From assembly GCA_019689675.1 (NCBI GenBank), contig JADGGZ010000010.1, positions 1 through 39,887 on the forward strand: a stretch of DNA of 39,887 nucleotides, written 5' to 3'. Shown in pieces: positions 31,798 to 39,887 of the stretch. The notes under the pieces were generated by a model. The model was not told where the DNA came from. It searched no databases and saw only the letters and a program-made list of their open reading frames with translations. Source of the DNA: Rhodospirillales bacterium. Its GTDB lineage: Bacteria > Pseudomonadota > Alphaproteobacteria > ATCC43930 > CGMCC-115725. Numbering within the stretch: position 1 is the stretch's first letter; the number at the start of each line of letters is the position of its first letter. The position numbers and the translations under genes are program-made.

Positions 31798-31872
<75 letters not shown>

Positions 31873-31917
31873 GTTTCCGCGGCGCTCGAGTCGCCGCGAC
31901 GGGGCGTCATGGGATAG

Positions 31918-32427
31918 TCAGTTTCCGTCGCGCATCCGGATCATCCGCACCGGCGTGTAGGTGAGCACCGTCGCTCCGTGCTGGTTGATCACCTTGTTGA
32001 CCGTCTTGACGATGCCCCTGCCGGGCTTGCTGGTCGGGCGCGCCTCGACCACCTCGACGTCGACATGGATCGTGTCGCCGGCGAATGTCGGGCCGGCAAT
32101 ATCGAGCTCCATCTTCAGAAAGGCGAGCCCGGTCCGCTGCAGAGTCGACTGGATCACCAGGCCCTCGGCGATCGAATAGACCAGCGCGCCTGGCGCTAGC
32201 CGCCCCTTGATGAGAGCTTCCTTCTCGACATAGTCGAGATCGGTGAAGAGAACCTCGAGCATGCCGGTGAGGCATACGAAGTTCGTGATCTCGGTTTCGG
32301 TGATCGTCCGACCGACCGTCCTGAAACGCCGGCCGACGCGGAAATCCTCGAAGTACATCCCGATGCCGACGGTCTCGACATGACGGGCATCGTCCGCGCC
32401 GGGGCGGATCTCACGGGTCTGCGACAT
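31918..32427 (-). CDS. MaoC-like hot-dog protein lacking the hydratase dyad
   Basis: 169-residue protein of the MaoC/hydratase-2 hot-dog family, normally (R)-specific enoyl-CoA hydratases. The fold signature is clear: FEDFRVGRRFRTVGRTITET, APGALVYSIAEGLVIQ and the C-terminal VNKVINQHGATVLTYTPVRM. At the catalytic site, where hydratases have a TGDxNPxH pattern, this protein reads TGMLEVLF (54-61), so the usual Asp is Met56 and the usual His is Phe61. It may be a thioesterase, a CoA-ester-binding protein or a hydratase with other residues. The gene follows tetR by 11 bases and is thus under the same control as the divergent catabolic unit. Confidence 0.85.
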   Translation of the reverse strand: MSQTREIRPGADDARHVETVGIGMYFEDFRVGRRFRTVGRTITETEITNFVCLTGMLEVLFTDLDYVEKEALIKGRLAPGALVYSIAEGLVIQSTLQRTGLAFLKMELDIAGPTFAGDTIHVDVEVVEARPTSKPGRGIVKTVNKVINQHGATVLTYTPVRMIRMRDGN

Positions 32428-32438
32428 TCTCGATCTCC

Positions 32439-33098
32439 TTAGGCTCCTGCGGGGGTCGCCCGTTCCTGCCGGACGGCCAGGCCCTCCGTCAGCAACGAGG
32501 CGAAAGTCTCGGCGACGACCGTCGCCTGCAGCGGCCCTCGCGGCTGGTACCAGTGAGCGATCCAGTTCAAGGAGCCCTCGATCGCGAAAGCGGCCATTTT
32601 GGGGTCGCAGGTCGCGATCGAGCCGTCGGCGATCCCCTCGGCGATGAGAGCTCTCACCCGCTGGTCGACGAGGCGCTTTCCCTTGCGGAATTTCCTTCGC
32701 GCCTCTTCGGACAGTTCACGATCGTCGAGGCGCACGAGGCACATTCCGAAATCGGCCGTCATGATCTTCGCCGCATATACCCGGATGAACTCGCGGACCT
32801 TGTCGAGCCCCGAGCCGTCGGACGCCTCGATCTCAGCAAGGTGCGCCTCGATCAGCTCCTGTCCCATGCGGAAGCATTCGATCAGGATGGCTTCCTTGCT
32901 CGCGAAGTAGTGATAGAGCGCCGGTTTGGTGATGTTCAGCTGCTCGGCGACGTCGCTCAGCTTGGTTCGATTGAACCCTTGCTCGAGAAACATCCGGGCT
33001 GCTGCCCTCAGAACGGCGCCGCGCTTCAGATCGCGGTCTCGCCGCCGATCCTCGAAAGGCTTCCACGGCGAACCGCTCGGGGTCGCACTTCGCGCCAA
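32439..33098 (-). CDS. TetR/AcrR family regulator of the catabolic cluster
   Basis: 219-residue repressor of the TetR family, close in style to FadR/PaaR-type regulators that bind acyl-CoA. The HTH lies at about residues 40-68 (FNRTKLSDVAEQLNITKPAL then YHYFASKEAIL), preceded by the helix AVLRAAARMFLEQG. The C-terminal ligand domain (about 75-200) is helical. The start is a TTG at 33098 with GAGGC upstream; no better in-frame start was seen. It is divergent from the CaiB gene, and the shared region carries a multi-half-site operator overlapping its own promoter, so autoregulation and control of both units are likely. The ligand is probably an acyl-CoA of the pathway. Confidence 0.9.
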   Translation of the reverse strand: MARSATPSGSPWKPFEDRRRDRDLKRGAVLRAAARMFLEQGFNRTKLSDVAEQLNITKPALYHYFASKEAILIECFRMGQELIEAHLAEIEASDGSGLDKVREFIRVYAAKIMTADFGMCLVRLDDRELSEEARRKFRKGKRLVDQRVRALIAEGIADGSIATCDPKMAAFAIEGSLNWIAHWYQPRGPLQATVVAETFASLLTEGLAVRQERATPAGA

Positions 33099-33134
33099 TG
33101 CTTCTGCCTCTTGCGCAAGCTCCGCTGCGCGGAT

Positions 33135-33163
33135 AACTTACCCGTGGGTAAGAAAAAGTCCAA
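33135..33163 (-). promoter_or_regulatory. tetR-maoC promoter
   Basis: On the minus strand TTGGAC (33158-33163), a 17-base spacer and TAAGTT (33135-33140). The palindromic operator covers the -10 box and spacer. Confidence 0.55.
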
Positions 33164-33172
33164 CGGGTAAGT
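33136..33172. promoter_or_regulatory. TetR operator with three half-sites
   Basis: A perfect palindrome CTTACCC-GT-GGGTAAG occupies 33137-33152. A further copy of the half-site, ACGGGTAAGT (33163-33172), is the exact reverse complement of ACTTACCCGT (33136-33145). The array lies 37 bases upstream of the tetR start and overlaps its promoter, in the divergent region of the catabolic genes. Confidence 0.75.
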
Positions 33173-33317
33173 TTCGGCGGAAGACGAGGCGCTCGACGCC
33201 CGCGAGAGCGCAGGCTGCGAACTCCGGACGCTGCTTCGCTGCGGCGTTCATCGCTTCAGAGTCGGGCGCAGGGAGTGACGTCGTGGGGGAGCTCACCGAA
33301 AAACCGAAAGGCTTTAG

Positions 33318-34550
33318 ATGACCGGTCCCCTTTCCGGTGTCAGGGTTCTCGATCTCACGACGGTCCTGCTCGGCCCCTATTGCACGCTGCTCCTCGGCGA
33401 TCTCGGCGCGGACGTCATCAAGATCGAGCCGCCGCAAGGCGACAGCACGCGCTTCATCGGCCCGACACGGTCGCGCGGGATGGGAGGCGTGTTCCTCAAC
33501 GTCGGCCGAAACAAGAGAAGCTGCGTCATCGACCTCAAGAAGCCGGAAGCGATCTCCGTGCTTCAACGCTTGCTCGCGACCGCCGACGTGCTCGTCTACA
33601 ACATGCGGCCCGCCGCGATGAAAAGGCTGGGCATCACGTACGACTGGGCGAAGAGCGTCAATCCCAGGATCATCTATTGCGGCGCGGTCGGCTTCGGCGA
33701 GGAAGGTCCATACGCGGGGCGCCCCGCCTTCGACGACATCATACAGGCCGCGTCGGGCATCGCCGCTTACCAGGAACGCCTTTCCGGCAGCCCCACCTAC
33801 TTCGCGACCGCGGTCGCGGACAAGGTGACGGGGCTGTTCGCGGCCAACGCCGTGCTCGCCGCGCTCTACAACCGTCAGAGCACGGGTCGCGGGCAGAAGA
33901 TCGACGTCCCGATGTTCGAGACGATGGTCGCCTTCATGATGGCCGAGCACATTACCGGCACGGCCTTCGAACCGCCTCTCGGGCCGCCCTACTATTCGCG
34001 AATCCTCTCTCCCAACCGCCGCCCCTATCGGACTGCGGACGGCTATATCGCGGTCCTCCCGTACAACGACCGGCAGTGGGCCCGGTTTTTCGAGGTGATT
34101 GGACGTCCGGAGCTGGCGAAGGATCCCCGGTACGCGGACATGGCCGCCCGGACCGAAAACATCGACTCGCTCTACGAGATCCTCGCAGACGTCATGCGCG
34201 GCAGGCCGAGCCGGGAATGGCTGCGCCTTCTGGAGGAGAGCGACATCCCGTCGGTCGAGATGAGGCGGCCAGAGGACCTCGTGAACGATCCGCATCTTCA
34301 GGCGACGAGCTTCTTCTCGATCGTTGAGCACGAATCCGAGGGCAGCATTCGGATGATGGCGCCGACGGTGCGCTTCTCGGAGACGGAAACGACGATCAGG
34401 CACCTCGCGCCGAGGCTCGGCCAGCATACCGTCGAGGTTCTCGAGGAGGCGGGCGTCGGGCGGCCCGAGATCGCGGCGCTGCGCGAGCGCAAGGTGGTTT
34501 GGTCCGAGGACGACCTTTCCGGAAGCGCGGCCGCGGCAGGGGAGGGCTAA
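33318..34550 (+). CDS. CaiB/BaiF-type (class III) CoA-transferase
   Basis: Transfers CoA from a donor thioester to a free carboxylic acid, here presumably the acid brought in by the TRAP transporter. The 410-residue length is standard for the formyl-CoA transferase family. Typical segments: LSGVRVLDLTTVLLGPYCT at the N-terminus, GADVIKIEPPQGDSTR, NKRSCVIDLKKPEA, and ATAVADKVTGLFAANAVLAA with Asp168 in the place of the catalytic aspartate. The ATG at 33318 has GAAAGG upstream. It is the first gene of the rightward unit, and its 5' region of over 140 bases contains the TetR operator. Confidence 0.92.
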   Translation: MTGPLSGVRVLDLTTVLLGPYCTLLLGDLGADVIKIEPPQGDSTRFIGPTRSRGMGGVFLNVGRNKRSCVIDLKKPEAISVLQRLLATADVLVYNMRPAAMKRLGITYDWAKSVNPRIIYCGAVGFGEEGPYAGRPAFDDIIQAASGIAAYQERLSGSPTYFATAVADKVTGLFAANAVLAALYNRQSTGRGQKIDVPMFETMVAFMMAEHITGTAFEPPLGPPYYSRILSPNRRPYRTADGYIAVLPYNDRQWARFFEVIGRPELAKDPRYADMAARTENIDSLYEILADVMRGRPSREWLRLLEESDIPSVEMRRPEDLVNDPHLQATSFFSIVEHESEGSIRMMAPTVRFSETETTIRHLAPRLGQHTVEVLEEAGVGRPEIAALRERKVVWSEDDLSGSAAAAGEG

Positions 34551-34624
34551 GGGATGGCGCTGGCGAGCGTACGAATCGGGGGCCCGCTCCGCGCGCTGTG
34601 CGGGAGTGCAGGCGCCGGGGGGAG

Positions 34625-35182
34625 ATGAAGAGGAAACCGTCCTTCGTCGATCGTGTGATCGAGCCCGTCGACAGGGTGCTCGTCGCGCTGTCGGCTGTCA
34701 CTTTGATCGCGATCATGCTGATCGTCACGACCGACGTCGCGCTCCGATACGTGTTCTCGCGCCCGCTGATATGGGCCTACGACGTGATCGGGCTCTATCT
34801 GATGGCGGCGGTGTTCTTTCTCGCTCTGCCGCATTCCCTGCGCCATCACGTCCATATCTGCGTCGACGTGATCGTGCACGTGATACCGCGCCGGGTGCGG
34901 CATGCCTTCGAGTCCATTGGCTACGCGGCGACCACGGTGCTCCTGGCGACTCTCGTCTGGCTCACCGCAGAGCGCCTCGTGACGGCCTACGTCAACGATG
35001 AGCTTGTCGACAGTGCGGTGTCTCTGCCGGCCTGGATCGCCCAGGTACCGGTCGCGGCGGGGCTCGCGGTTCTAACCGTGCACTGCTTCCTGCGTTTCCT
35101 CGCGCACCTCGTCTCGACCTTCGCCGCGTCTTCGCTGATCGAGTTTCCGCCGCAGTCCGGGTCGGGCGAAGCAGAAGCATGA
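34625..35182 (+). CDS. TRAP transporter small permease (DctQ-type)
   Basis: Small membrane subunit of a tripartite ATP-independent periplasmic transporter, which couples carboxylate uptake to a sodium or proton gradient. The 185 residues show four hydrophobic spans: LVALSAVTLIAIMLIVTTDV (about 18-38), IGLYLMAAVFFLALPHSL, ATTVLLATLVWLTAERL and VPVAAGLAVLTVHCFLRFL. RYVFSRPLIWAYDVIGLY is the family signature. The frame is open from 34499, but the ATG at 34625 directly follows GGGGGGAG and gives the normal length. It overlaps the dctM-type gene by 4 bases. Confidence 0.92.
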   Translation: MKRKPSFVDRVIEPVDRVLVALSAVTLIAIMLIVTTDVALRYVFSRPLIWAYDVIGLYLMAAVFFLALPHSLRHHVHICVDVIVHVIPRRVRHAFESIGYAATTVLLATLVWLTAERLVTAYVNDELVDSAVSLPAWIAQVPVAAGLAVLTVHCFLRFLAHLVSTFAASSLIEFPPQSGSGEAEA

Positions 35183-36468
35183 CGACCGCGACCTGCTCGC
35201 TGCTGCTGGCTGTCCTCCTTCTCGGTGGGTTTCCGGTCGCCTTCTCTCTCGCCATCTCGGGCGCGCTCGGGCTGTTCTGGCTCGGCGGTCCGGCGACGCT
35301 TCTCGGCGTGCTCAAGACGGCGCCGTTCTCGGCCGTCAGTTCCTACGAGATCATCACGATCCCGATGTTCCTCGTCATGGCCGAGTTCGTCGTCCTCTCC
35401 GGCTTCGCGGACGAATTGTTCGCCGCGGCGTCGACCTGGGTGGGCCGCATCCGTGGCGGACTCGCGATGGCGACAGCCTTGGCCGGCGCCGGCTTCGGGG
35501 CGATCTCCGGGTCGAGCACGGCCGCGGCGGCGACGCTTTCAGCGACGACGGTTCCTGCGATGCTGCGGCGCGGCTACGACCCGGCTCTCGCCGGCGGCGT
35601 GGTCGCGATCTCGGGAACACTCGCGATGCTCATCCCCCCGAGCATCGCGCTCGTGATTTACGGAATTATCGCTGATGTCAGCATCGGATCGCTGCTCATC
35701 GGGGGCGTCGTGCCGGGCATCCTGGTGACGCTCACGATCGTGCTGACGGTCGCGTTTCTCGTCTGGAGAAACCCTGCTCTGGCGCCGCTCGGCGGTTCAT
35801 TCTCGCTCAAGGAGAAGCTCCAGTCGCTCCGGACGGCTGGGCCGCTCGTCTTGTTGTTCATGCTGGTGACCGGGACCATCTACACGGGCGTGGCGACGCC
35901 GACGGAAGCGTCGGCCCTGGGGGCTTTCGGAGCGGCCGCTCTTGCGGCCTACGCCGGAAAGCTGCGCGGCCCCGGCCTGCGGCACGCCCTCACCCGCGCG
36001 GCGCACACCACTGCGATGATCCTTCTGATCATGCTCGGCGCGCAGATCTTCGGGTACTTCTTCACGCTGACCCAGACGACCCAGCAGCTGGTCCAGCTCG
36101 TCGGCAGCCTCGAGGTATCCCGTTGGGTGATCATGGCGCTGATCATCTTCGGTTATCTGATCCTCGGCTGCTTCATGGACCAGATCGCGATTCTGATCCT
36201 CACGGTCCCGGTGGCGCTGCCGGTGATCAAGACGCTGGGGTTCGATCCGGTGTGGTTCGGGGTGATCGTGGTCGTGACGGCGGAGGTCGGCATGGTCACC
36301 CCGCCGCTCGGACTCAACGTCTTCGTCGTCTCCCGGTGCACCAATCGGCCGTTGCGGGAGGTGTTCGCGGGCGTGATGCCGCATGTTGTCGCCCACATTC
36401 TCATCATCGCCGTCCTGGTCGCATTTCCGGCGCTGACTCTTTGGCTGCCGTCGACGATGAGCCATTGA
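35179..36468 (+). CDS. TRAP transporter large permease (DctM-type)
   Basis: Main membrane channel subunit of the TRAP transporter; 429 residues with about 12 hydrophobic spans. Recognisable segments are IPMFLVMAEFVVLSGFADEL, GAISGSSTAAAATLSATTVP near residue 110, MLIPPSIALVIYGIIADVS, GVATPTEASALGAFGA and the C-terminal VVVTAEVGMVTPPLGLNVFV. All are typical of DctM. It is coupled to the small permease by a 4-base overlap and followed by the binding-protein gene after 68 bases. Confidence 0.95.
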   Translation: MTTATCSLLLAVLLLGGFPVAFSLAISGALGLFWLGGPATLLGVLKTAPFSAVSSYEIITIPMFLVMAEFVVLSGFADELFAAASTWVGRIRGGLAMATALAGAGFGAISGSSTAAAATLSATTVPAMLRRGYDPALAGGVVAISGTLAMLIPPSIALVIYGIIADVSIGSLLIGGVVPGILVTLTIVLTVAFLVWRNPALAPLGGSFSLKEKLQSLRTAGPLVLLFMLVTGTIYTGVATPTEASALGAFGAAALAAYAGKLRGPGLRHALTRAAHTTAMILLIMLGAQIFGYFFTLTQTTQQLVQLVGSLEVSRWVIMALIIFGYLILGCFMDQIAILILTVPVALPVIKTLGFDPVWFGVIVVVTAEVGMVTPPLGLNVFVVSRCTNRPLREVFAGVMPHVVAHILIIAVLVAFPALTLWLPSTMSH

Positions 36469-36536
36469 GTCGCGAGGGGGCGGTCGAGGCGGCAGGTGTC
36501 TCTCGCTGCGCCGGTCACTTCATGGAGGAAGAAGCC

Positions 36537-37568
36537 ATGCATTCGAACGCCATTCGACGATCAGCCGTCGGCCTCGCGGTTCTTGCCGCCGCGCTCGCCG
36601 GCACGAGCGCCTATGCGAGCGAGATGAAGCTGCGGGTCGGCGACTCGTTTCCCGTAGGTCACTACATCTCCGAGCACGGGACGAAGGCGTGGATGGAGAA
36701 GGTGACGGCGCTCACGGGCGGGAAGGTCACCTTCGAGTACTATCCGGCCGAGCAGATGGGGAAGGCGAAGGATCTTCTCAGCCTGACGCAGGCAGGGACG
36801 ATCGACGTCGGCTACGTCGCGCCGGCCTTCGTCACCGACAAGCTGCCGCTTTCGGTCGTGGGAGAGCTGCCGCTGCCGTTCAGCAAGTCCTGCGAGGGCT
36901 CGATGGCGTTCTGGCAGCTGGCGAAGGAAGGCGGTGTCCTCGACAAGGCCGAATTCGAGCCTGCCGGGGTCCGGGTTCTGTGGTCTCTCGTGCTCGCGCC
37001 GTACCAGCTCTACATGGCGAAGCAGGAGATCAAGTCGATCGACGTCGTCCAGGGAAAGAAGATCCGCACGACCGGGGCGGCGAAGGTCCTCGCGCTCAAG
37101 AAGCTCGGAGCCGTGCCGGTCTCGATCCCGTCGCCCGAAATGCGTGAAGCGCTCCACCGCGGCACGGTGGACGGCATGCTTCTGCCTCACACCTCGGTCG
37201 CGCCTTACGGACTCTCGACGGGTTTCAAGTCGGCCACGATAGGGCACAACTTCGGAAGCTTCGTCGTGACGTACGTGATCGCCCGCGAGCGGTGGAACGC
37301 GTTCGCGCCCGAGGTGAAGAAGGCCTTCGACGAAGCCGCCGACTACACCATCCGCAAAATCTGCCAGCACACCGACGAGTCCGAGGCAAAGGACATCGAG
37401 GCGCTGAAAAAGGACGGCATCCAGTTCGTCTCTCTCGACCCCACGGAAGCGAAGAAGCTGCAAGACGTGATGGACAGCGTCTCCGCCGAGTGGGCCGAAA
37501 ACCTGGAGAAACGGAACAAGCCGGCGCGGCAGGTGCTTCAGGCCTTCCGGGACGCGCTTTCGAAGTAA
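36537..37568 (+). CDS. TRAP transporter solute-binding protein (DctP-type)
   Basis: Periplasmic receptor that captures the substrate and hands it to the permease. 343 residues with a signal peptide (RRSAVGLAVLAAALAGTSAYA, probable cleavage after residue 27). The mature part starts MKLRVGDSFPVGHYISEHGT, the DctP-type opening. GKKIRTTGAAKVLALKKLGA near 180 holds the Arg that normally binds a carboxylate, followed by VSIPSPEMREALHRGTVDGM. The substrate is thus likely a monocarboxylate or aromatic acid, but it is not identifiable. The ATG at 36537 has a perfect GGAGGAAG upstream; the open frame from 36123 belongs to the dctM shadow. Confidence 0.95.
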   Translation: MHSNAIRRSAVGLAVLAAALAGTSAYASEMKLRVGDSFPVGHYISEHGTKAWMEKVTALTGGKVTFEYYPAEQMGKAKDLLSLTQAGTIDVGYVAPAFVTDKLPLSVVGELPLPFSKSCEGSMAFWQLAKEGGVLDKAEFEPAGVRVLWSLVLAPYQLYMAKQEIKSIDVVQGKKIRTTGAAKVLALKKLGAVPVSIPSPEMREALHRGTVDGMLLPHTSVAPYGLSTGFKSATIGHNFGSFVVTYVIARERWNAFAPEVKKAFDEAADYTIRKICQHTDESEAKDIEALKKDGIQFVSLDPTEAKKLQDVMDSVSAEWAENLEKRNKPARQVLQAFRDALSK

Positions 37569-37764
37569 GGCGGCCCGTTCCGCTGGGCATCGGCGGGCGT
37601 TCGGGATCGCGAGACCGCATCGGCCCTCGGCCGGCGACGGCCCCGCGGCCCCGAACCGCTCGACCGTCCGGGGTCAAGGATTGGCGCTTCGGGGCAGAGC
37701 CGGCCGCGCGGTGCACGGCGAGGTCGTCCACGAAGCGGTGCGAGAAAGCGCGAGGGAGGCTCGA
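37569..37764. other. 196-base intergenic stretch after dctP
   Basis: Very GC-rich, with short inverted repeats around 37620-37660 but no T-run. The reading frame of the next gene is open back to 37681 without a ribosome site. It could stabilise the dctP mRNA; nothing else was seen. Confidence 0.4.
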
Positions 37765-38922
37765 TTGCTCGACTTCAACATCAGGCTTCGCCCGGAGCCG
37801 CTGCCGGACGCCTGCATCGCCCTTCGCCGGGAGGTTCGGGCGTTTCTGAAAGACGAGCTCGAGGCAGGCTCGTTCGAACCGATGATCGACAGCTGGCTAC
37901 GCGGCTTCGATCGGGATTTCAGCCGACGGCTGGGCAGCCGCGGCTGGGTCGGCATGACGCTTCCGGGCCGCTACGGCGGCCACGACCGCAGCCAGATAGA
38001 GCGCTTCGTGGTTGTCGAGGAGCTGCTCGCGGCCGGCGCTCCGGTCGCGGCCCATTGGATCGGCGACCGGCAGGTCGCGCACAGCATCCTTCGTTTCGGC
38101 TCGGAGGAGCAGAAGCAGAAGTTCCTGCCGCGCATCGCCCGGGGCGATTTCGTCGTCGGAGCGGGGTACAGCGAGCCGGACGTCGGCTCGGACCTCGCGT
38201 CGGTGCGGACGCGGGCCGAGCGCATCGACGGCGGGTGGCGGCTCTTCGGCACGAAGGTCTGGAACAGTCACGGGCATCACGCGGATATTTTTGTCGTCCT
38301 GTGTCGCACGTCCCCGCGCGGCGAGCAGCGGCATGCCGGCCTGAGCGTCCTCATCGTCGAGATGCCGAACCCGAACGTTCAGGTTCGGCCCATCCTCTTG
38401 ATGACCGGCGAGCATCACTTCAACGAAGTCGTGTTCGACGGCGTCGAGGTTCCGGACGAGATGGTTCTGGGCGAGGTCGGGCAGGGGTGGCGAGTCATCA
38501 CCTCCGACCTGGCGCTGGAGCGCAGCGGCCCGGAGCGCTTTCTCAGCACCTACCGGCTTCTGGTCGAGATGCAGAGACGCGCCGATGAAACGGGTGCGCA
38601 ATCGGCTCGCCGCGCCGTTGCCGAGCTTTTCGCCCGGCTGTGGACGCTGCGTTCGATGTCCCTTGCGGTCGCCATCAGTATGGATCGCGGGCACACCCCC
38701 GAGCTCGAAGCCGCAATCGTCAAGGAGATGGGGACCCGCTTCGAGAAGGACGTCGGCGAGGTCGCTCGCCAGATCTTCCCGGCCGAGCCATTCCTCGATT
38801 CGACCGATCCGTTCGTGAGGCACCTCGCCGTGGCGGTCATGCACTCGCCGGCCTACACGCTGCGGGGCGGCGCGAACGAGATCCTGCGTGGAATTATTGC
38901 GAGGGGGATCGGTCTGCGATGA
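37765..38922 (+). CDS. acyl-CoA dehydrogenase, FAD-binding subunit type
   Basis: Flavoenzyme expected to introduce an alpha,beta double bond into the CoA ester made by the CaiB-type transferase. 385 residues from a TTG at 37765, which follows GAGGGAGG by 5 bases; a TTG at 37681 opens the frame but has no ribosome site. The N-terminal helical domain covers about 1-120. The FAD/substrate segment AGYSEPDVGSDLASVRTRAE and GGWRLFGTKVWNSHGHHADI form the beta domain. The C-terminal end AYTLRGGANEILRGIIARGI is of the GGxxEI class common in FadE/PimC-type enzymes. It overlaps the next gene by 4 bases. Confidence 0.92.
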   Translation: MLDFNIRLRPEPLPDACIALRREVRAFLKDELEAGSFEPMIDSWLRGFDRDFSRRLGSRGWVGMTLPGRYGGHDRSQIERFVVVEELLAAGAPVAAHWIGDRQVAHSILRFGSEEQKQKFLPRIARGDFVVGAGYSEPDVGSDLASVRTRAERIDGGWRLFGTKVWNSHGHHADIFVVLCRTSPRGEQRHAGLSVLIVEMPNPNVQVRPILLMTGEHHFNEVVFDGVEVPDEMVLGEVGQGWRVITSDLALERSGPERFLSTYRLLVEMQRRADETGAQSARRAVAELFARLWTLRSMSLAVAISMDRGHTPELEAAIVKEMGTRFEKDVGEVARQIFPAEPFLDSTDPFVRHLAVAVMHSPAYTLRGGANEILRGIIARGIGLR

Positions 38923-39887
38923 GCGATTCGACATCCGGAATGCTGATCGAGTCGCTGCGCCGGCTGCTCGAGACGGAAATCGCTTCGGGCGAAGGCGGCG
39001 CCCTCGAGCCCGGCAACTGGCATTCGGCCCTATGGGGCCGGATGGCCGGGCTCGGGATGACCTCCGTCGCCTCCGACTACGAGGAGGAAGGGCTTGCTCT
39101 CGCCGCCGGTGTTCTCGTCGAGATCGGTCGTGCGGCGGCGGTCGTTCCGCTCCTCGAGCATGACGTGCTCGCCGGCTGGATACTCGCGCAGGCTGGTGTC
39201 GAGCGGCCCTCGGAGGGGATTCTCTCCGCGGCGGCGGGTGTCGGCGTCGGCGAGCTCGGGATTCGCCGCATCGGCGGGAAGTGGCGGCTGGAAGGCAGGA
39301 TCCCGAGAGTGCCCTTCGGGCGGCATGCCGCCGAGATCGTCCTGGTAGCCTCCGTCGATCGGAGCAACTGGGCGATCCGCGTTCCGGTGGCGGAGGTCCG
39401 TCTCGTCGAGGAGCGCAATCTTGCGGATGAGCCGCGCGACCATGTCTATCTCGACGGCGTCAGCATCGAGCCCGCGCGGGTGGCGCTCCTGCCCCCGACG
39501 GTGACGCCGGATCGGGTGTTCGCCCGCGGCGCCTTGGGGCGCTCCTTTCAGATGCTCGGCGCGATGGAGCGCGCGTTCGCGATGACCCACGAATACGCGC
39601 GTACGCGTGTGCAGTTCGGACGGTCGCTCTCGCAGTTCCAGGTCATTCAAGGTTACTTGGCTGAAATCATCGGGGAGATTGCCGCAACGCGCGCGATGTG
39701 CGAGGTCGCCCTGGAGGCTGCCCGCGAGGGCGCCGCCCTCGAGGAGATCGCCGCCGCGAAGATCCGGGCGGGCCAAGCCGCCCGCGTTGTCGCCGACCGC
39801 AGCCATCAGATCCATGGTGCGATCGGCTTCACGCGCGAATATGAGCTCCAGCTCGCCACGCGGCGGCTGTGGTCGTGGCGGGAGGAG
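38919..39887 (+). CDS. second acyl-CoA dehydrogenase subunit (3' end outside window)
   Basis: The first 323 residues are visible; the stop lies beyond the right edge. Starts with the ATG inside ATGA at 38919-38922, so it is translated with the preceding dehydrogenase. The N-terminal helical part is shorter, and where active dehydrogenases carry a TEPxxGSD-like motif this protein has only AAAGVGVGELGIRRIGGKWR, so that FAD contact is missing. The C-terminal helical domain is well conserved: EYARTRVQFGRSLSQFQVIQ and HQIHGAIGFTREYELQLATR followed by LWSWR. This pattern suits the partner subunit of heteromeric acyl-CoA dehydrogenases. A functional homomer is less likely. Confidence 0.88.
   Translation, partial: MSDSTSGMLIESLRRLLETEIASGEGGALEPGNWHSALWGRMAGLGMTSVASDYEEEGLALAAGVLVEIGRAAAVVPLLEHDVLAGWILAQAGVERPSEGILSAAAGVGVGELGIRRIGGKWRLEGRIPRVPFGRHAAEIVLVASVDRSNWAIRVPVAEVRLVEERNLADEPRDHVYLDGVSIEPARVALLPPTVTPDRVFARGALGRSFQMLGAMERAFAMTHEYARTRVQFGRSLSQFQVIQGYLAEIIGEIAATRAMCEVALEAAREGAALEEIAAAKIRAGQAARVVADRSHQIHGAIGFTREYELQLATRRLWSWREE

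Follow-up and report, generated by a model that had tools for sequence, protein, structure and literature searches.

The pim operon of Rhodopseudomonas (pimFABCDE) is concerned with pimelate and other dicarboxylates. Itaconate/methylsuccinate clusters (ict-ich-ccl, mcd), described in Pseudomonas aeruginosa (PA0878-PA0886) and Cupriavidus necator, encode a succinyl-CoA-dependent CoA-transferase, an acyl-CoA dehydrogenase (ACAD), a hydratase and a lyase, and the P. aeruginosa cluster also has tripartite ATP-independent periplasmic (TRAP) uptake genes, ictPQM (PMC12599236, PMC12290011). In the 3,3'-thiodipropionate cluster of Variovorax paradoxus TBEA6, two enoyl-CoA hydratases are needed, and CoA transfer and an ACAD have been proposed (PMC6370202). 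The window analyzed here, i.e., the whole stretch of DNA under study, was a complete contig of 39,887 nt (JADGGZ010000010.1) from the 4.2 Mb draft genome (423 contigs) of a Rhodospirillales bacterium (GCA_019689675.1). At its right side, two divergent units, maoC-tetR and caiB-dctQ-dctM-dctP-acd1-acd2, probably form an accessory operon in which DctPQM would take up a carboxylic acid, CaiB would transfer CoA to it, Acd1-Acd2 would desaturate the product, hydration would follow, and TetR would repress both units. Within a partial coverage of the literature, no description of this combination of TRAP, CaiB and ACAD genes in a cluster was found.

Gene Content and Arrangement

Open reading frames and Pfam matches placed all eight genes where a preliminary description of the sequence had put them, and the matches were far above cut-off for every gene bar maoC. 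The minus-strand unit was comprised of tetR (32439-33098; start codon TTG), a TetR-family repressor gene with TetR_N (59.3 bits) and TetR_C_24 domains, and, beginning 11 nt downstream of its end, maoC (31918-32427), encoding a MaoC-like hot-dog protein of 169 aa (PF01575, 34.3 bits; cut-off 27). The plus-strand unit began with caiB (33318-34550), a CaiB/BaiF class III CoA-transferase gene (CoA_transf_3, 395.5 bits, profile positions 1-366 of 366). The TRAP small permease gene dctQ (34625-35182; DctQ, 80.1 bits), the large permease gene dctM (35179-36468; DctM, 296.8 bits, and TIGR00786 over cut-off) and the solute-binding protein gene dctP (36537-37568; DctP, 110 bits) followed consecutively, all over the Pfam cut-off, as in a DctPQM TRAP transporter. 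The unit closed with acd1 (about 37765-38922; alternative TTG start at 37681), a PimC-like ACAD gene with three Pfam ACAD domains, and acd2 (38919-39887, running beyond), encoding a second, PimD-like ACAD subunit (Acyl-CoA_dh_1, 80.9 bits) readable for about 323 codons.

The earlier wording that the genes are mostly separated by short gaps or 4-base overlaps was slightly generous: two of the five plus-strand junctions were 4-nt overlaps (dctQ/dctM and acd1/acd2), and the others measured 74, 68, and 112-196 nt. The cluster had also been said to continue beyond the right edge; acd2 is indeed cut there, but position 39887 is the contig end and any continuation is unreadable in this assembly.

Conservation of the Gene Grouping in Other Genomes

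The DctM alignment was scanned against 84,980 species genomes, the 80 best loci were kept, and neighbors were counted within 8 kb. As a control, 20 alphaproteobacterial TRAP loci picked with the general DctM Pfam model received the same treatment. The preliminary description had made its reading depend on homologs of these genes lying together in other genomes, and they did. CaiB-type genes were found in 63 of the 80 related loci and 2 of the 20 control loci, CaiB together with an ACAD in 54/80 and 1/20, MaoC-type genes in 44/80 and 0/20, CitE-like lyases in 40/80 and 0/20, and the acd1 and acd2 pair in 13/80 and 0/20; the 80 loci are akin to one another, so that these counts are not independent and their ratio is not a probability. 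Co-occurrence far above the TRAP background supports the proposal that uptake, CoA transfer and desaturation belong to a single pathway. With the 20-locus control, clustering by pure chance was rejected and is largely refuted. On the DctM tree no fewer than eight gains or losses are required to explain the acd pair, which was more clustered than in all 500 shuffles; this points to a link between pair and transporter that arose or was kept repeatedly.

The 13 loci with the acd pair all contained CaiB, and 12 contained a crotonase. Nine loci from Polaromonas, Rubrivivax and others had the order dctQ-dctM-dctP-acd1-acd2-crotonase (L111, L112, L114, L115, L123, L125, L126, L128, and L157); in two of these (L114 and L115) caiB and maoC came after it, completing every enzyme of the window. 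An Azospirillum oryzae A2P locus (L119), with a DctP 60% identical to that of the window, contained every part and, besides these, a crotonase, a second CoA-transferase and a major facilitator superfamily (MFS) carrier. Overall, the gene set was spread over alpha- and betaproteobacteria. Since acd1-acd2 is almost always followed by a crotonase gene in the relatives, the missing gene to the right of the contig end is predicted to encode a crotonase.

On Roseobacter plasmids, homologs of MaoC (63% identity), acd1 (49%) and acd2 (38%) also recurred jointly, accompanied by a TAXI-type TRAP transporter. Roseobacter conjugative plasmids carried the relatives most similar to MaoC (62-63%), near acd1- and acd2-type genes, MmgE/PrpD and the TAXI-type transporter, and there, too, MaoC and a regulator were divergent from the ACAD-transporter unit.

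Three further observations concern related gene groups. In L315 (5004-5486), L316 (5001-5483) and L317 (6019-6501), a MaoC gene lacking the catalytic dyad adjoined an IclR-type regulator gene, divergent from two ACADs and a TAXI-type TRAP transporter, with a second ACAD pair of the acd1/acd2 type and MmgE/PrpD further along. Conjugative plasmids of Paracoccus, Sagittula and Sulfitobacter (L053, L055, and L056) shared one island (CoA-transferases, ACADs, TRAP, and citryl-CoA lyase) whose protein accessions were identical, and its presence in three genera points to recent transfer. Plasmids of Rhizobium, Azospirillum, Rhodococcus, Pseudonocardia, Peribacillus and Sphingomonas (L098-L103) had a cross-phylum module in common: an acd1-acd2 pair, in most cases together with crotonase and CaiB and in some with a semialdehyde dehydrogenase.

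The crotonase bears on another reading, in which the substrate is an acid with a hetero-substituent, such as an ether or thioether; crotonase would hydrate the double bond made by Acd1-Acd2, and the resulting hemiacetal-type intermediate would break up into a semialdehyde and an alcohol or thiol. This reading would account for the presence, in Rhizobium and Peribacillus, of a semialdehyde dehydrogenase beside the acd1-acd2-crotonase-CaiB set and for the rarity of beta-ketothiolases (9 of the 80 related loci), and it has a parallel in the Variovorax 3,3'-thiodipropionate cluster (PMC6370202). A semialdehyde dehydrogenase was, however, present in just 2 of the 80 TRAP-linked loci, and the window cluster contained no sulfur-handling genes; we regard such a substrate as unlikely.

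Acyl-CoA Dehydrogenase Pair, CoA-Transferase and Binding Protein

Acd1 aligned with Tcur3483 and 4x28 chain A; the presumed catalytic base, the ER-motif Glu (Glu254 of P0003), was kept. Tcur3481 and chain D of 4x28 aligned with Acd2; they are the partner subunits in the heterotetramers 6wy8 and 4x28. Two adjacent, unlike and overlapping genes that match both subunits of a known heterotetramer suggest that Acd1-Acd2 is a heteromeric dehydrogenase. The PimC model gave 163 bits with Acd1 (cut-off 623.85) and the PimD model gave 63.7 bits with the incomplete Acd2 (cut-off 652.7), so that neither protein was assigned to these equivalogs.

In alignment, Asp168 of CaiB fell on the Asp found at this position in 9br7, 10uh and 4ed9, as in class III CoA-transferases, and is presumably the active-site Asp. 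The best relative in the PDB was a succinate--hydroxymethylglutarate CoA-transferase (9br7), and the nearest NCBIfam models were formyl-CoA, succinate-glutarate and mesaconate CoA-transferases, none at cut-off. Because CaiB is nearest to dicarboxylate CoA-transferases, the best guess is a dicarboxylate as acceptor and succinyl-CoA as donor.

In TRAP binding proteins, an Arg at the position of DctP Arg180 (P0002 numbering) usually holds the carboxylate of the ligand, and this residue was invariant in the alignment. The nearest solved relatives of DctP were 5im2, 4n6d, 4nap and 4pgn. The IctP-like structures 9HT3/9HT4 were not among the 35 PDB matches at E<=1e-8, although the presence of 9HT3 in the searched set was not checked.

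These matches could also speak for an aromatic or alicyclic acid, with DctP binding a ring carboxylate and the ACAD pair oxidizing ring or side chain: PimC and PimD, the nearest ACAD models, belong to a pathway downstream of ring cleavage, and 5im2, 4nap and 4pgn, among the nearest PDB binding proteins, are probably binders of aromatic acids. The scores fell short of equivalog cut-offs of ~624-653 bits, though, and the cluster held no ring-specific enzyme. Such a pathway is, in our judgment, decidedly improbable.

A MaoC-Like Protein Without the Catalytic Dyad

Hot-dog hydratases bear the motif G-D-x-N-P-x-H or a variant of it. The window MaoC has L-T-G-M-L-E-V-L-F where PaaZ has LSGDHFYAH and 1q6w has LTADFFPLH, placing Met56 and Phe61 at the Asp and His positions. 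In an alignment of 22 subfamily members, mostly from these same clusters and with relatives sharing 43-60% identity with the window protein, Glu58 and Phe61 were invariant, Asp was present in 0/22 and the dyad in 0/22; the Asp/His dyad of MaoC-type (R)-enoyl-CoA hydratases is thus lacking. An AlphaFold model gave a confident hot-dog (pLDDT 87.4) matching 1q6w, 4ffu, PaaZ and HadAB in fold, and among 20 subfamily members scored, 11 matched PF13452 and six HadA (FAS1/HadA-type domain). The protein labeled MaoC earlier thus does not look like a normal hydratase. A second MaoC type (L147, L054, L161, L121, and others) has MTMNPQPLH, in which His is kept and the Asp position is apparently replaced, and adjoins a CitE-type lyase.

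ChsH2, which lacks the dyad, binds substrate while ChsH1 does the hydration (PMC11321319). With the dyad lost throughout the subfamily, the MaoC step is not to be read as ordinary hydration from annotation alone; hydration by a crotonase or by a heteromeric hydratase is more likely. Given the crotonase beside 12 of 13 acd pairs, crotonase appears a better candidate for this step than the MaoC protein.

The same residues tell against a diverged itaconate/methylsuccinate pathway, in which CaiB would be Ict, MaoC would be Ich, the ACAD would be methylsuccinyl-CoA dehydrogenase and the TRAP transporter would be IctPQM. Gene classes and logic are those of P. aeruginosa PA0878-PA0886, and half of the relatives (40/80) have a CitE-type lyase. 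Yet the Ich/RipB itaconyl-CoA hydratase model scored 51.2 bits with the window MaoC (cut-off 340), no citramalyl-CoA lyase was present among the genes read up to the contig end, where the cluster is cut, two heteromer-type ACADs replace a single one, and the relatives have the other MaoC type beside the lyase. We consider this derivation quite unlikely.

A bolder proposal, put forward tentatively and with less than even confidence, is that the dyad-less MaoC subfamily, acd1-acd2 and CaiB constitute a CoA-dependent pathway, so far undescribed, that acts on a natural acid of common occurrence; MaoC would here catalyze a reaction other than ordinary hydration or form part of a new heteromeric hydratase, and DctPQM and TAXI transporters would be interchangeable.

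Operator and Probable TetR Control

A shared operator had been announced between the divergent units, and a near-perfect palindrome, TTACCCGTGGGTAA (33138-33151), was present between tetR and caiB. The predicted operator (33135-33173; no strand assigned) reads AACTTACCCGTGGG...CCAACGGGTAAGTT and consists of a 14-nt inverted repeat around this palindrome and a half-site GGGTAAG (33165-33171), 37 nt upstream of tetR and 145 nt upstream of caiB. This GGGTAAG is a third half-site at a distance of 19 nt from the second; two TetR dimers may therefore bind here, or the spacing may serve cooperative binding. The sequence TTACCCNNGGGTAA without mismatch was single-copy in the 4.2 Mb genome, and a genome-wide search for a second TetR site returned just one site with one mismatch, on contig C303.

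The closest TetR homologs were drawn from 385 alphaproteobacterial genomes, the top three having 54% identity, and TTACCCATGGGTAA stood directly upstream of the genes of all three. The two neighborhoods read, each that of one of these three homologs, were unlike this cluster (acyl-CoA ligase, thiolase, SDR, and ACAD). Across 3.8 Mb of collected loci the motif occurred only at those TetR genes, at the window's copy and at one further TetR-homolog locus. Two more distant homologs carried TTACTGATCAGTAA and TTACTGTCCAGTAA. Plasmid TetR homologs of 45-50% identity did not have the operator in their own promoters, though in Novosphingobium aromaticivorans a copy was 1.8 kb away, within the same gene group. 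The window protein thus combines a TetR_N domain with a palindrome common to its three closest homologs, and the conserved palindrome is best read as the phylogenetic footprint of the TetR binding site. From this we infer repression by TetR at the locus. An acid or acyl-CoA would fit as the TetR ligand, since the homologous regulators adjoin genes of CoA-ester metabolism.

Locus Boundaries and Genomic Setting

The left edge of the cluster is 46 nt past a tRNA-Thr gene with anticodon ggt (31798-31872, plus strand; ARAGORN and Rfam), its conserved left neighbor and boundary. Linkage of murA and this tRNA gene was retained in seven same-family relatives of other genera, those in which both were readable (L222, L226, L228-L231, and L234), and the genes to the right of the tRNA were different in every one. 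The site beside murA (31798-31918) thus has a constant boundary and a varying right side, as an accessory-gene hotspot does. No related DctP was found among the sampled relatives of the host's family. Both results indicate that the cluster was probably gained horizontally at a variable site; its GC content was 64-67%, against mostly 67-72% leftward of it. Up to the point where the contig stops, neither an integrase nor a repeat was visible.

The same setting could suggest chance neighbors, unrelated genes gathered at an accessory site beside tRNA-Thr, as the variable flank and the missing DctP would allow. Recurrence of the same gene types together across alpha- and betaproteobacteria, the shared operator and the gene overlaps make this very improbable.

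The host genome is rich in TRAP transporters (20 DctM matches). It also has a second acd1 on C23 (L237; 80% to the Azospirillum acd1), an acd2-like gene on C190 (L238; 61%) and a crotonase on C70 (L235; 65%). As candidates for the continuation of the cluster, the C70 crotonase (59% identical to that of L115), the C23 acd1 and the C190 acd2 were rejected: all are internal to other contigs and none was shown to join.

Proposed Pathway

From the observed gene content, operator footprint, co-occurrence and residue losses, we infer substrate class, CoA donor, complex formation, and repression and its relief as follows. DctPQM would bring in a carboxylic acid, most likely a dicarboxylic one and perhaps branched or cyclic, and CaiB would activate it by CoA transfer, with succinyl-CoA or a pathway thioester as donor. 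An Acd1-Acd2 heteromer, with the catalytic Glu in Acd1, would then make the alpha-beta double bond. The crotonase predicted just past the contig end would hydrate the product, or a heteromeric hydratase would do so with the dyad-less MaoC as its substrate-binding partner. TetR would repress both units from the intervening operator until freed by the acid or its CoA ester.

Besides the kinship of the 80 loci, several points weigh against this account. The acd2 gene is incomplete, and any genes past 39887 lie beyond the contig. The gap of 112-196 nt between dctP and acd1 could hold a separate promoter. All enzymes of the cluster score below the equivalog cut-offs of NCBIfam. DctP has only distant relatives in the PDB, and the best of them, 5im2, 4n6d, 4nap and 4pgn, are probably binders of aromatic acids and not of aliphatic dicarboxylates. 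Finally, tetR was present in 0 of the 80 related loci, where IclR-type regulators were usual, and the TetR switch is therefore a local feature; the TetR control proposed earlier is well supported by the operator common to the nearest homologs but is particular to this locus.

The accessory operon nonetheless appears to be a real, conserved catabolic module, a coherent gene set distributed over alphaproteobacteria, betaproteobacteria and conjugative plasmids, whose binding protein offers a route to the substrate and whose exact operator is a possible readout of induction. The cluster further brings to light a hot-dog subfamily that is routinely annotated as hydratase, doubtfully so because the standard catalytic residues are gone throughout.

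Comparison With Known Systems

Acd1 and Acd2 match two different subunits of the heterotetrameric ACADs (Tcur3481-Tcur3483, 6wy8; 4x28), with the catalytic-Glu position kept in Acd1, but are distant in sequence and lie in a TRAP-linked, apparently non-steroid context; the complex is a prediction here. The MaoC protein resembles HadA and ChsH2, non-catalytic hot-dog subunits of heteromeric (de)hydratases, in having the MaoC fold without the His/Asp dyad, whereas its subfamily has an invariant Glu58/Phe61 motif of its own and no catalytic partner was identified. The catabolic cluster for thiodipropionate in V. paradoxus TBEA6, like the conserved gene set, unites CoA-transferase, ACADs and crotonases; its sulfur genes mdo, act and acdA are absent from the window cluster.

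The itaconate/methylsuccinate clusters likewise join a class III CoA-transferase, an ACAD and a MaoC-fold hydratase in one locus, and that of P. aeruginosa adds TRAP uptake. What sets the window locus apart is its ACAD pair of two subunits, its MaoC without the dyad and its TetR control. The pim operon has a large and small ACAD pair of which Acd1 and Acd2 are reminiscent, while CoA-transferase and TRAP genes replace the rest of the pim set. With the Ich assignment unsupported, no lyase seen, and PimC and PimD scores far below cut-off, the window cluster appears to work like the itaconate and pim systems yet to belong to neither.

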